From Sediminivirga luteola (GTDB taxonomy: Bacteria; Actinomycetota; Actinomycetes; Actinomycetales; Brevibacteriaceae), in contig NZ_BMFY01000018.1 of assembly GCF_014639315.1 (NCBI RefSeq), positions 1-64,000 on the forward strand: a DNA stretch of 64,000 nucleotides. Direction: 5' to 3'. The position numbers were made by a program, and so were the translations under genes. The notes beneath the pieces were generated by a model. The model was not told where the DNA came from and ran no database searches. It saw nothing but the letters and a program-made list of their open reading frames with translations. Position 1 is the stretch's first letter; each line of letters starts with the position of its first letter. Of this stretch, positions 43,317 to 48,674 are shown in pieces.

Positions 43317-44932
43317 GGAGTCGCCTCCGGGTGCCGCAGAGTGAGGGCGGCCAGGAGATCCTCGCGGGTGGGACGCTCTCTGCCGGCGACGTCGGCGATG
43401 CTGGCGGCCACGCGGACGACACGGTCATAGCCCCGCATGCTCAGCAGGCCGCGCCGCAGGGCCTCGTCGATCTCGCGTATCTCGGCGGGACTGAAGGCGT
43501 ACCGTTCCCGCAACCAGCTGGCGTCGGCCTGCGCGTTGAGCCGCCAGGGCAGGCCCTGGTAACGCCGGCGCTGCGCCTCGCGTGCGCGCCGCACCCGGGC
43601 CGCGACGTCAGCGGAGGCTTCCTGGGGTCGGGTGTCCTGCAGGTCTTTGAGCGCCACCGGGTGCAGTTCCAGATGAACGTCCATCCGGTCACGGACCGGA
43701 CCGGAGAGCCGGGCGGCGTAACGGCGCCGCGCCATCGGCGGGCATTCACAGCCGATGCCGGTGCCCACCGCTTTCCCGCAGGGGCAGGGATTGGCGGCCA
43801 TCACCAGCTGGAAGGAGGCGGGGAAGGTGGCCGACTCCGCCGCCCGGTCGACGCTGTAACGCGCCGATTCCAGTGGTTGCCGCAGCAGTTCCAGGGCGTC
43901 TCTGCGGAACTCCGGCGCCTCGTCCATGAACAGGACGCCGTGATGTGCTTGCGCCATCAGCCCTGCCCGGCGCGGGCTTCCCGTCATGGCGGCCGGTGAG
44001 GTGCGATGGTGCGGCGCCACGAACGGCGGCGTGCGATCCAGCCCGGTCTCGGGGTCGAAGACCCCGGCGAGCGAGCGGACGGCGGCGACTTCGACGGCTT
44101 CTTCCTCGCTCAGCGGCGGCAGTATCCCCGGCAAGGCGCTCGCCAGGAGGGTCTTCCCGGCGCCGGGCGTGCCGATCATGAGCATGTGGTGACCACCGGC
44201 CGCGGCGACCTCCAGCGCCCAGCGCGCCTGCACCTGTCCTCTGACCGCCGCCAGATCCGCCGGAGCGGGACCGCCGGGGGCGCGCTCCGGGACTCGCGCG
44301 CTCACCATCGGCTGCTGCGGTGCCGGCAGGTTCGCGCCGTGGATGTTCGCCGCCTCGGCCAGGCTGGTCGCGGTCCGGATGCGCATGCCCTGCACGAGGG
44401 CGGCCTCGGCGGCGTTGCCGGCGGGGACGACTGCGCGGTCGATTCCGGCCTCGCGTGCGGCCAGCAGGGCCGCGATGACCCCGCGGACCGGATGCAGCCT
44501 GCCGTCCAGGCCCAGCTCCCCCAGGTGCACGGTGGCCTCGGCTGCACCGGCATGCAGGTGGCCGGCCGCGGCCATCACCGCCACCGCGATGGCCAGGTCG
44601 AAGACGGTGCCCACCTTGCGCAGTTCGCCGGGCGAGAGGTTGACCGTGATCCGGGTGGCCGGCATCGCGCAGCCGCTGTTGCTCAGCGCCGTGCGGATCC
44701 GCTGGCGCGCCTCGTTGACCGAGGCGTCAGGGAGCCCGACGACGGTCATCGCCGGCAGCCCGTCGTTCAGTGACGCCTCGACCGTGACGAGATGACCCCG
44801 TAGCCCTTCGAGCCCGATGGCGCGTGCCCGGCCCAGCCGCAATCGTCGCTCGCCACCTCCGACGGGGGCTGCAGCGCGAGCCGGCCCCGGGCTCTCGGCA
44901 CGCAGCTCGCCGGCCTCCGGCGCGGCACTCAT
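43313..44932 (-). CDS. comM: YifB/ComM-family Mg-chelatase-like AAA ATPase
   Basis: This 539-residue protein has an N-terminal Lon-like domain (GLEGLRGHLVTVEASLNDGL), the Walker A motif MLMIGTPGAGKTLLA and Walker B-type GVLFMDEAPEF, and a C-terminal Mg-chelatase-like part. In Vibrio and Haemophilus ComM is a helicase that extends heteroduplex during transformation. Here it is coupled to yraN upstream and dprA downstream by ATGA overlaps. Confidence 0.95.
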   Translation of the reverse strand: MSAAPEAGELRAESPGPARAAAPVGGGERRLRLGRARAIGLEGLRGHLVTVEASLNDGLPAMTVVGLPDASVNEARQRIRTALSNSGCAMPATRITVNLSPGELRKVGTVFDLAIAVAVMAAAGHLHAGAAEATVHLGELGLDGRLHPVRGVIAALLAAREAGIDRAVVPAGNAAEAALVQGMRIRTATSLAEAANIHGANLPAPQQPMVSARVPERAPGGPAPADLAAVRGQVQARWALEVAAAGGHHMLMIGTPGAGKTLLASALPGILPPLSEEEAVEVAAVRSLAGVFDPETGLDRTPPFVAPHHRTSPAAMTGSPRRAGLMAQAHHGVLFMDEAPEFRRDALELLRQPLESARYSVDRAAESATFPASFQLVMAANPCPCGKAVGTGIGCECPPMARRRYAARLSGPVRDRMDVHLELHPVALKDLQDTRPQEASADVAARVRRAREAQRRRYQGLPWRLNAQADASWLRERYAFSPAEIREIDEALRRGLLSMRGYDRVVRVAASIADVAGRERPTREDLLAALTLRHPEATP

Positions 44933-45488: not shown

Positions 45489-45545
45489 CACCCGGCGCAG
45501 GTCTTTGCTACCGCTTCCTGAGACATCACACCCGGCGCAGGTCTT
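45489..45545. repeat. Direct repeats at the left edge of the island
   Basis: CACCCGGCGCAGGTCTT occurs at 45489-45505 and again at 45529-45545; a shorter piece (TGCAGGTCTT) follows at once. The repeats lie between yraN and the first island gene. Confidence 0.75.
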
Positions 45546-45569
45546 GGTGCAGGTCTTGGCCCGTCTCCC

Positions 45570-46145
45570 TCACTCTGGCGGTGAATAGTGCAAGGCACCA
45601 TCGGTTTCACCGATCCAGGAGAACCGGCGTTTAATGGCATCCCGGGCGTTGCCAGTTACGTTCCCGCTTTCCGGTGCGGCTGAGGGCCAAAGGTCAAATA
45701 TCCAGCGGTCCGGGCCGGCCTGTCGATCGCCCCGCTGCGCGAAATCCTCAATCCATGCGCCGTCCCACGAGACGCCGGGCCAGGCCGTCACTCGTAACCC
45801 GTACCAGCCTTCTGGCGCCGGTGTGAACGGCCAGGTATCGGGGGCGACCAGAACGTAGAATTTACCTCCGTCCGGGAACCGCAAGGTCGTCTCCGCCCAG
45901 AACGACGGTGGGTTGTCCGGGTCTGGGGGCTGCGGCCTATCTTCATGAAGCGAAACCGTGACGAGCATGACCTGTTTGATAATCGGGGGCTCGATCAGTA
46001 TGAACTCTTCGTCCAGATACAGCGGCAACGCTCTCGAAATCACCGAGGGAATGCGCAGCCCATGATCCAGGGAGGCCACGCTCGTTCCGGCTTGGAGCCA
46101 TCCAAAGTCATTATGAAAATACTGACTTTCCGTATAGAGCGTCAC
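45570..46145 (-). CDS. Hypothetical cytoplasmic protein coupled to the NucA/NucB-type gene
   Basis: This 191-residue protein has no signal peptide and no membrane segment. It is rich in Trp, Pro and acidic residues, with segments such as LPLYLDEEFILIEPPIIKQV and APEGWYGLRVTAWPGVSWDG. I do not recognise a family. GTG 46145 overlaps the stop of the nuclease gene (GTGA), so the two should be translated together. A cytoplasmic protein tied to a secreted nuclease suggests an immunity or chaperone role, but that is inference only. Confidence 0.7.
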   Translation of the reverse strand: MTLYTESQYFHNDFGWLQAGTSVASLDHGLRIPSVISRALPLYLDEEFILIEPPIIKQVMLVTVSLHEDRPQPPDPDNPPSFWAETTLRFPDGGKFYVLVAPDTWPFTPAPEGWYGLRVTAWPGVSWDGAWIEDFAQRGDRQAGPDRWIFDLWPSAAPESGNVTGNARDAIKRRFSWIGETDGALHYSPPE

Positions 46146-46927
46146 TGCACCCCCACCCTGAACTCGTTCCATCGCTGGTACATGATATCGTCCACAAACT
46201 CATCCGACCAAGGAGCACTGTTCGGAATTATTCTGGATTTACGATAGAAAACGGCCAGGTCAGCTCCGGCAGTTCGATTATCCGAACTAGGCACGTAACG
46301 CACCGAGTAAGCAAGATCATCATATTCCCAATATTCCCTGTTTTCCCTACTGTACTCGGGACTTTGCCATGTGCTCGCGTAAGGGTACTCATCGCAATCG
46401 TACCCGTCCGGGCGTATCCCGAGTTGGCTCGAGCACGTAGCAGCAGACTCGTTTCTCGGATGTGGCCCTGGATAATTGCGTGTCAACACGTCAAACACCC
46501 ATGCACCTGCTGCAGCCCGGGAATTTCTATCGTAGAAAAGGTCACCGGTTCCACCGAGTGCGTCGGCGACAAAGGCCCTGTGCATAGGACTTCTTTCGAT
46601 GGAAGGCCTGAAAGTCAGCAGACTTCGGTTCAAAAGGGTGTGATCGTCATCATCGATCTCATACTGATCCCACGCACTTAATACCATTCCTCGGCCAGCA
46701 GTGAACACAGGGTGCCCATCGCCACGTATCCCGATACTCGTAGGGGAGCTTAAAGAGGCGTACCGACCCAAAGGGTCCGAGAGGGTAAAGCGAATCCAAC
46801 GCCCGTGTATGATCGCCCGAACGTCATCACCCACCTCATCATAAAATTCCATCATGTACTGGTATGTTTCGTTGTTTGGCTCATCGAATGTTAGCAGTCG
46901 CGGAACTTCGAGCTCAAAAAACGCCAT
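46142..46927 (-). CDS. NucA/NucB-type deoxyribonuclease domain (C-terminal half of a split gene)
   Basis: The frame contains DGYDCDEYPYASTWQSPEYS and then NRTAGADLAVFYRKSRI. The CDEYP-AST pattern is the hallmark of the NucA/NucB DNase family, and the Asp and Glu are its catalytic region. The nearest ATG is 46927, but the family is secreted and this half has no signal. Read with the upstream half through a +1 shift at the T-run near 46920, it gives one exported protein of 505 residues. It is in the AT-richer island and is followed by a coupled small gene. Confidence 0.72.
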   Translation of the reverse strand: MAFFELEVPRLLTFDEPNNETYQYMMEFYDEVGDDVRAIIHGRWIRFTLSDPLGRYASLSSPTSIGIRGDGHPVFTAGRGMVLSAWDQYEIDDDDHTLLNRSLLTFRPSIERSPMHRAFVADALGGTGDLFYDRNSRAAAGAWVFDVLTRNYPGPHPRNESAATCSSQLGIRPDGYDCDEYPYASTWQSPEYSRENREYWEYDDLAYSVRYVPSSDNRTAGADLAVFYRKSRIIPNSAPWSDEFVDDIMYQRWNEFRVGVQ

Positions 46928-47660
46928 ACTCGACATACTCGCCACGCAACGCAGAGTCATCAGCGGTCTCCGGAAGGCCAATTGTGAGAGTTGCCAGCAG
47001 GGGATTATCGTACGTAACGTTCGCGATCGAAAAATGCACATCAGCGCGAGGGGCAGCGTTATCGGTATACACGGTAGTTACCGCATCGAAAGTCATAGAC
47101 CCAGCAGGCACGCCATCAAGTTCGAATCGAACTAAATACGAATCGGCGACACACCCCGCTCTTGCATGAGGCATATATACCCACCGCTCACCCGTTTCCG
47201 GATCCCGAACAAAGTCCGGATCACCCTTCGTTGCCAGGCAATCGTCTTTCGAAATTCGTGGATACTCAGGGTCTTCCGCTACCCGATACTGAACATCACC
47301 CTGCAGTTCCCGTGTTCTATAACTTTTCTGATAGAGAGCCTCGGTGTGATTTCGGTAAATCCGTTCAGCGATTTCAGTGGACTTCTCACCACCATGTGTG
47401 ACGCCTGCTTCCCAACTATGCTCGAGGAGACGAGTTGCGGCTTCGATTTCCTCGCGCGAGTCGCGCTCTGGGTGCGGAATCTCAGCTCCATCCTCATAGG
47501 CGACGCGCGGAATTCCGCCCGTCACAACCACGATCTTCACATCGTCAGCGGAATCCCATTGCGCCCACGCTGGCGACGACGACCAAGTGGTCAATAATGG
47601 GGCAGCGACAGTCAAAGCAACGGCAAGACTGAGGATTCGGACATAGTGACGTTTGGGCAT
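46914..47660 (-). CDS. Signal-bearing N-terminal half of the split NucA/NucB-type protein
   Basis: The protein begins MPKRHYVRILSLAVALTVAA, with a signal peptide likely cut after AWA. The rest (about residues 33-248) includes SKDDCLATKGDPDFVRDPET and RVAYEDGAEIPHPERDSREE; I do not recognise a domain. The frame ends GEYVEYGVF then stop, and the downstream frame picks up FELEVPRLLTFDEPNNETY at the same T-run. A long N-terminal region before a NucA/NucB domain is common in actinobacterial members, by my recollection of the family. Codon and base use is AT-rich compared with both sides. Confidence 0.7.
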   Translation of the reverse strand: MPKRHYVRILSLAVALTVAAPLLTTWSSSPAWAQWDSADDVKIVVVTGGIPRVAYEDGAEIPHPERDSREEIEAATRLLEHSWEAGVTHGGEKSTEIAERIYRNHTEALYQKSYRTRELQGDVQYRVAEDPEYPRISKDDCLATKGDPDFVRDPETGERWVYMPHARAGCVADSYLVRFELDGVPAGSMTFDAVTTVYTDNAAPRADVHFSIANVTYDNPLLATLTIGLPETADDSALRGEYVEYGVF

Positions 47661-48674
47661 GACATCCTGCCTCTTCGTCGAGGGCTCGGGGACCCTTTTA
47701 TGCTAGAGTCTCCTTTCTCTCCGCCGCTAGATGCAGCATCAAATCGCCTTACCGTGTTAACGCACTGTTCACGGAAGCGCAGCGATACACGTCATCCGAC
47801 GCCATCGCCCATCGACCTGGTCAGCCCACTGGAACCAGCGCGTAGACCATCCAGCCCCGCCCAAACTACCGGTCACCTGATAGGTTCACGCTATACTTGC
47901 TGCAGCCCCGGATGCTGCCCAGAAGTTCGGCAGGCCCCGGCACTATGACGGCGCCGGTACACCGCCACCGGACGTCAGCGCAGTCCTCCGCCGTTTACAT
48001 GGGAGGCACAGCAGCACCAGCTGCCGTACAGGAAACGAGTATCCTCGCGCTCCCCGGGGGGATCGCTGCAGACCCTACAGTCAGAACGCGTTAGATCCGC
48101 TGCCATGGGGTAAAGAGTCGTCGCGGTTCACGATGAGTTGCCGCGTTGATGTCACTGCTGGCGTGAAGCATACGTTCGGCCCGGCCCCCTGACCGTGGCA
48201 CGCCGGTACCCGAGTTCATACCATCACGGATGTTCTGGTAGAGCCCGTTCCGATGAGCCTCATGCCGTTCCTCATTTTCTCTAACTTTCTCAGCCGGGAA
48301 TTCACCTGCGAAGAGTCCGCATAGTCACCGCGGGAAACACTCCGCTCGATGCACCCCTTGAGCTCATACGGACCGGAAAAGCTCACGGTTGCCTTGGCCT
48401 CAGTCTATGGCTCTGCCCTCAGGTTCTCACCGGACCGACGAGACCACCGATCACGCTCGCGCGTTGAGTCCAGTCCGATTGCCTGCTAGCTACGGGATTG
48501 TGCACTATCTCCCGGTAAGTCATTGACGAAAGAGTTACGTCCGGGCCGGTGCACTAATTCCAAGCGGTGAGCTCACGCGGAAATAGTGCACCACCCCGAA
48601 AGTAAGGGGCCGGCAGTAGGTGGCCGGCAATGCTGGACAGCAAGAGGGGCCGGTGCCCCTGCGGGACCGGTGCC
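47661..48674. other. About 1 kb without a recognisable gene, right part of the island
   Basis: No frame here has convincing coding character. The base composition is lower in G+C than the flanks. The only structures I see are the TGCACTA inverted repeat at 48548-48592 and a further TGCACTAT copy near 48500. It may hold decayed genes or the promoter of the nuclease gene near 47661-47760. Confidence 0.5.
48548..48592. repeat. Inverted repeat near the right edge of the island
   Basis: GGTGCACTAATTCC (48548-48561) and GGAAATAGTGCACC (48579-48592) are inverted copies with one mismatch. Related pieces, TGCACTAT near 48500 and AATAGTGCA near 45586 at the other edge, may mark an old insertion boundary. 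Confidence 0.65.

Follow-up and report, generated by a model that had tools for sequence, protein, structure and literature searches.

The minus strand of the 64,000-nucleotide stretch of Sediminivirga luteola DNA analysed here (the window) carries, in succession, an open reading frame that starts with a signal peptide-like sequence, a second frame that ends in a nuclease domain of the NucA/NucB type, and a gene for a 191-residue protein, here called the partner (Table 1). All three lie in a stretch that is poorer in G+C than its surroundings. This AT-richer island had been proposed in a first-pass annotation of the sequence from two hand counts, 27 G+C in positions 46861–46920 and 42 in a line of comM (43801–43860), and both counts proved exact. 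When G+C was computed for 2091-base segments at steps of 50, the mean was 69.6% (sd 3.2%), the six lowest values started at 45701–45951, and the island was the lowest-G+C stretch of its size within the window. Its low G+C points to an origin from elsewhere.

The flanking genes are of familiar kinds. On the 3′ side of the island, on the same strand, Pfam matched UPF0102, Mg_chelatase/ChlI and DNA_processg_A, and we read these genes as yraN, comM and dprA. About 1 kb upstream of the island lie a SpoU methylase and then cysS (Pfam matches, the gene names being our reading of them). Upstream of the nuclease is a stretch of about 870 nt with 59.8% G+C and without a convincing gene (47661–48534), and next to it a palindrome of about 70 nt (48535–48605; GGTGCACTAATTCC ... 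GTGAGCTCAC ... GGAAATAGTGCACC). The palindrome is a REP-like element; its core has one copy in the window, and it is dispersed in the genome, with 36 further matches, many of which are both strands of one place. Just downstream of the partner gene (45494–45560), GGCGCAGGTCTT is present in three near-identical copies, at spacings of 40 and 12 nt.

Table 1. Features of the locus, with positions in the window.
Feature	Position	Strand	Remarks
Signal-bearing ORF, most likely the 5′ part of a secreted nuclease gene	46917–47660, stop 46916–46914	−	248 codons; predicted Sec-type signal peptide MPKRHYVRILSLAVALTVAAPLLTTWSSSPAWA and N-terminal region
Frame break	46914–46922	−	Six-T run, then GA; GTT TTT TGA in the first frame; read from the sequence
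Most likely the 3′ part of the nuclease gene, NucA/NucB DNase domain at its end	46145–46915, stop 46144–46142	−	PF14040, 30.1 bits; relatives' nuclease profile, 62.6 bits
NucA/NucB DNase domain core	46226–46435	−	Contains CDEYP, with the DE pair, and a DN further on
GTGA overlap of nuclease stop and partner start	46142–46145	−	Sequence
Partner gene, candidate ComJ/Nin-fold nuclease inhibitor (immunity)	45570–46145	−	191 aa; relatives' profile and fold match to ComJ (4MQD)
AT-richer island	45570–47660		54.9% G+C (whole window, 69.6%); yraN-comM-dprA follow directly downstream, the island and these genes all lying on the minus strand

The nuclease assignment made in the first pass, a CDEYP-type NucA/NucB domain, was confirmed. 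PF14040 matched the nuclease frame with E 7.3e-7 and a score above its curated cut-off (30.1 against 23.8 bits), and no other match to the family turned up in the genome (3.86 Mb) at E ≤ 0.001. In B. licheniformis NucB the active site is formed by D93, E94 and N117 (PMC5758888, excerpts). The CDEYP and SSDNRTAG motifs of the window protein align with the consensus of its relatives, so that D, E and N active-site residues are present; they were placed by motif from the NucB residues, without aligning NucB itself. The PF14040 match begins at profile position 36, and no aligned counterpart of the NucB structural histidine H53 was established in the window protein. The signal-bearing ORF (46914–47660 with its stop, minus strand) was likewise where it had been annotated, its signal peptide being judged by eye and with a simple, crude script.

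The signal ORF overlaps the nuclease frame, and it ends in GTT TTT TGA where the nuclease frame runs through in another frame; the place of the frame change is a six-T run near 46915. A profile built from the nucleases of 64 relatives hit both window frames in order. The signal ORF corresponded to profile positions 83–244 (13.2 bits, E 0.0015) and ranked second among the window ORFs, the third having E 0.027, while the nuclease frame corresponded to positions 383–461 (62.6 bits, E 1.6e-18). A single-sequence phmmer search of the signal ORF against the same 64 nucleases gave no match under default settings and a best E of 0.099 with filters off, and the reading of the two frames as one gene is thus supported by the relatives' profile and not by the single-sequence search. 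Two relatives from the same order (L006 and L007) each have one open frame with a signal-like start, which, together with the ordered profile matches, argues that the window holds one broken nuclease gene. In a third (L005, from genome G024 of the window genome's own family) an in-frame stop divides the signal ORF from the nuclease ORF. That divided gene spans 1474–2736 on the minus strand of its locus, and downstream of it is an ORF that resembles, by eye, a transposase fragment (491–808).

The first-pass annotation had described the signal region, nuclease and partner as following each other. This order holds, but the first two are most likely not separate genes: we read them as one gene with a frame break that the annotation had missed, caused by mutation or by assembly error. 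The intact open frame that a working secreted enzyme would need is not present in the assembly, where the break falls between the signal ORF and the domain. The nuclease gene is therefore probably broken in the window genome, in which the partner frame is intact.

The partner gene starts with a GTG codon at 46145, which overlaps the nuclease stop (46144–46142) in the GTGA noted in the first pass; it has 191 codons, and no signal peptide was seen by eye. It had been annotated as belonging to no recognised family, and this description stands: no Pfam or NCBIfam family fitted among the 30 members of its family that we scanned. PF11033, the Pfam family for ComJ, matched none of these 30 even at E values as high as 10, and it was likewise absent from the genome of the window and from all 394 genomes of the class. 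Searches of Pfam, NCBIfam and PDB sequences with the partner family gave scattered weak matches to unrelated proteins, and 4MQD was absent from them. As a direct query against the genome_contigs collection, the window partner retrieved no relatives. Its weak match in one genome (G058) was discarded as chance, since it lay within a greA-like region, in a frame other than that of the ORF there.

Relatives of the partner were reached through the nuclease alone. The nuclease was found in four genomes out of 396 in the order, counting that of the window, and in all three of the others a protein of similar size lies 3′ of it on the same strand. In the class, PF14040 gave 59 matches in 36 of the 394 genomes. 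From three seeds among the neighbours of these nucleases a partner profile was grown stepwise (E < 1e-3, window excluded). With 19 rows, none of them from the window, this profile found the window partner at E 1.2e-4, and with 83 non-window rows at E 1.5e-4, in each case as the sole match among the window ORFs; the profiles of 3, 11 and 17 rows did not match it.

The first-pass annotation had suggested looking for the gene pair elsewhere; other genomes do contain it, and it can be recovered from either side. Beginning with 61 non-window nucleases, a partner-family gene is next on the same strand in 25, is convergent on the 3′ side in five and is in neither place in 31, many of the genes in this count being also rows of the partner profile. 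Absence of the partner beside related nucleases, named in the first pass as evidence against the pairing, was thus seen in 31 of the 61, whereas the family lies 3′ of the other 30; together with the inhibitor-like fold described below, this means that the conditions set there for refutation were mostly not borne out. Beginning with the partner, a five-row subfamily alignment was run against genome_contigs, and the best 80 of 166 relatives were taken; their genera include Streptomyces, Actinomadura, Micromonospora, Amycolatopsis, Nonomuraea, Actinoplanes and Kineosporia. Four more relatives, all that were found, came from viral_contigs. In 43 of these 84 partner loci, two of which (L145 and L148) are query genes met again, a nuclease ORF ends no more than 400 nt upstream on the same strand. 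The remaining 41 have no nuclease just upstream: 13 carry the domain in frames of 585–773 aa (L110, L124, L151 and ten further loci), and 28 have neither. In the three long frames that were scanned (3/3), the ComJ-fold domain stands before a DUF6461 domain. Another arrangement is seen in L047 (1825–3108), where two tandem ComJ-like copies share one frame directly after the nuclease.

Linked partners adjoin nucleases with open frames of 265 to 1425 aa, so that, as in polymorphic toxin-immunity systems, varied N-terminal delivery regions precede the same toxin domain and immunity family. The window partner, directly beside a NucA/NucB nuclease and overlapping it by GTGA, is one case of this recurrent pairing. 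In the class as a whole, matches to the partner profile occur in at least 98 of 394 genomes, a count for which the window row was within the profile and nine candidates per genome were scored among those listed, so that it may be too low. Nuclease genomes that had given no profile row carry the partner domain more often than nuclease-free genomes (10 of 14 against 66 of 358; Fisher P 4e-5, tallied by hand from lists, with kinship and genome size uncorrected). A broader tally, in which the partner domain occurred in 31 of 35 nuclease genomes, was rejected as circular because 21 of these genomes had themselves given profile rows.

Structure prediction gave the family a fold. The AlphaFold2 model of a canonical member (L115) had a pLDDT of 90.7, and its best match was ComJ of B. 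subtilis (4mqd; Z 12.0, rmsd 3.2, 122 of 133 residues; Foldseek E 9.3e-6), which the PDB title of 4MQD describes as an inhibitor of the DNA-degrading activity of NucA. The second match was a crocagin biosynthesis protein (6i86, Z 10.3), and the remaining rows scored 2.3 or below. On this confident model, the partner family is predicted to have the ComJ/Nin fold. The model of the window partner itself was weak (pLDDT 62, with residues 1–44 below 50). The first pass had recommended predicting its structure, and the outcome was the fold of a known inhibitor rather than an unrelated one: 4mqd_A ranked first of 998 chains aligned, at a Z of 7.6 (rmsd 4.3, 107 residues) that falls in the range called common by the structure-comparison tool, from a model that family sequences in the alignment may have pulled toward the family fold. 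Again 6i86 came second (Z 6.1), followed by a third row at 3.8 and others no higher. At the level of sequence, a 30-row partner profile (A2) matched the ComJ sequence in hhalign (E 1.5e-5, probability 80%), and a second, less diverse profile (A5) gave no match (probability 1.5%). A search of the plasmid collection with the ComJ sequence gave no match.

Taken with the frames, the nuclease domain and the recurrent gene pair, this fold match leads us to propose that the locus probably encodes a secreted NucA/NucB-type DNase with a translationally coupled, cytoplasmic inhibitor of the ComJ fold; the pair is best read as a divergent branch of the ComI/ComJ kind. The nuclease would be exported, now or formerly, by way of its Sec signal peptide, and would cut DNA with its DE...N metal site. 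The β-rich partner would remain inside the cell, bind the nuclease domain and hold the nuclease inactive, and the producer would thereby be shielded from the DNase before export, or from DNase arriving from neighbours, much as in B. subtilis NucA-Nin (ComI-ComJ) and in Tox-ComI/Imm-ComJ toxin-immunity pairs. The place of its gene, its predicted fold and its recurrent pairing make it most likely that the partner is an inhibitor, one that shields the producer against the DNase it secretes. As the domain is also found away from nucleases, the fold by itself is no proof of DNase inhibition. Three points chiefly limit this reading: the window protein itself gave a weak model, its nuclease frame is broken, and many proteins with the partner domain are encoded away from any nuclease. 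Of the options offered in the first pass, that of a toxin/immunity pair is well supported by the recurrent gene pair and the predicted ComJ/Nin fold, inhibition being the predicted activity.

How far is the nuclease itself still in use? Besides the breaks in the window and in L005, fewer than 100 open residues precede the domain match in 11 of 73 linked nucleases (window excluded; some genes are counted twice across two samples, for example L053 = L148 and L007 = L145), and partner genes are present beside them. These short frames are the only part of the signal analysis used as evidence; by the crude signal script, 24 of 74 linked nucleases are without a signal or broken, and six run into an edge. 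The nuclease could accordingly be a true pseudogene, with the partner alone under selection as immunity to the DNases of neighbours. We put this at somewhat below an even chance. Errors in draft assemblies would give the same picture, and the partner-led sample is biased to intact partners, broken ones falling outside the count. Such a remnant is compatible with the secreted DNase and inhibitor proposed above; the two readings differ as to what has become of the nuclease. The DNase might serve competition, the use of DNA as food or the turnover of biofilms. The varied lengths of the paired nucleases, and those interrupted beside a partner, lead us to favour a role in conflict over one in housekeeping.

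A wider and more tentative idea, which we hold to be rather unlikely as a whole, is that the large ComJ-fold family of this actinobacterial class forms a standing immunity repertoire against NucA/NucB DNases secreted by neighbours. Nucleases would come, go and break, and immunity copies, both linked and orphan and including those fused to DUF6461, would be kept; the window would then show a broken nuclease beside a kept inhibitor.

The partner might instead be a ComJ-fold protein with some other job, for example a helper in folding or export. The many nuclease-free contexts of the domain, DUF6461 fusions among them, would suit such a role, as would the second fold match to a crocagin biosynthesis protein. 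However, partners linked on the same strand occupy the position of an immunity gene, and the best structural match is to an inhibitor of the same nuclease family, and we consider a role of this kind improbable.

Similarly doubtful, in our judgement, is a function in competence, another option raised in the first pass, in which the nuclease would cut DNA arriving at the cell surface so that it can be taken up, as proposed for NucA-Nin, the partner would regulate it, and the placement by yraN-comM-dprA would be functional. These three genes do follow the pair directly on its strand, a comEC homologue is present in the genome (PF03772, E 6.7e-40), and NucA-Nin of B. subtilis is itself a competence pair (PMC3482391 and PMC5758888, excerpts). 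Yet the context is not shared elsewhere: tblastn found dprA, comM, yraN, rlmB and cysS at none of 152 other loci (those fetched up to L155, mostly of 3–10 kb, some overlapping and one a chance hit), and as a positive control the same search detected both comM and yraN in loci L161–L170, which had been fetched for yraN. In six of nine relatives an RNase HII-like ORF, identified by eye, stands upstream of yraN instead, which places the island at a break in gene order. This break, the low G+C that suggests arrival from outside, and the rarity of the nuclease in the order all argue against a functional placement.

Lastly, production of a full-length nuclease by a programmed +1 frameshift at TTT TGA is very improbable: the two frames do align in order with the nuclease of the relatives, and TTT followed by a TGA stop resembles known +1 sites, that of prfB for example, but the sequence immediately before it shows no Shine-Dalgarno-like stimulator, the order relatives have a single open frame (L006, L007) or an in-frame stop with no change of frame (L005), and the break sits in a homopolymer run, a common place for errors and mutations.

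The data above bring a Pfam-nameless actinobacterial family, present in about a quarter or more of the class genomes by the count given, a predicted fold and a testable function. Nuclease and inhibitor pairs of the ComI/ComJ type are already known, and it is the present family, which Pfam ComJ does not recognise in the class, that had gone without a Pfam name. By titles and the starts of abstracts, we found no treatment of a ComJ-fold inhibitor family in actinobacteria in the open-access library searched. In the excerpts of PMC3482391, ComI toxins are reported in actinobacteria, ComJ is described as immunity to ComI toxins, and the table for Imm-ComJ lists proteobacteria, bacteroidetes, cyanobacteria, firmicutes and viridiplantae, actinobacteria being absent from it. 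The family would fill this gap and extend the pair to a phylum outside that list. According to the excerpts of PMC5758888, Nin inhibits both NucA and NucB, and the mechanism was described as unresolved in 2017; a wide variety of pairs whose nuclease is intact can now be used to examine inhibition of the Nin type.

Compared with known systems, the window locus is closest to NucA-Nin (ComI-ComJ) of B. subtilis, in which the Nin gene adjoins nucA (PMC5758888, excerpts). Both have a nuclease of the NucA/NucB family and an adjacent gene for an inhibitor, in the window a candidate one, and the predicted fold of the window partner resembles that of ComJ (4MQD). In contrast to NucA-Nin, the window partner is beyond the reach of PF11033 and is longer (191 against 132 residues), and the window nuclease has a long extra N-terminal region, an AT-rich setting and a broken frame. 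The enzyme is of the same secreted family as NucB of B. licheniformis and B. subtilis (5OMT), with which it shares the DE and N residues of the active site. In its architecture, the locus is also like the polymorphic Tox-ComI/Imm-ComJ systems outlined in PMC3482391, where the nuclease forms the C-terminus of longer secreted proteins and the immunity gene lies next to it.
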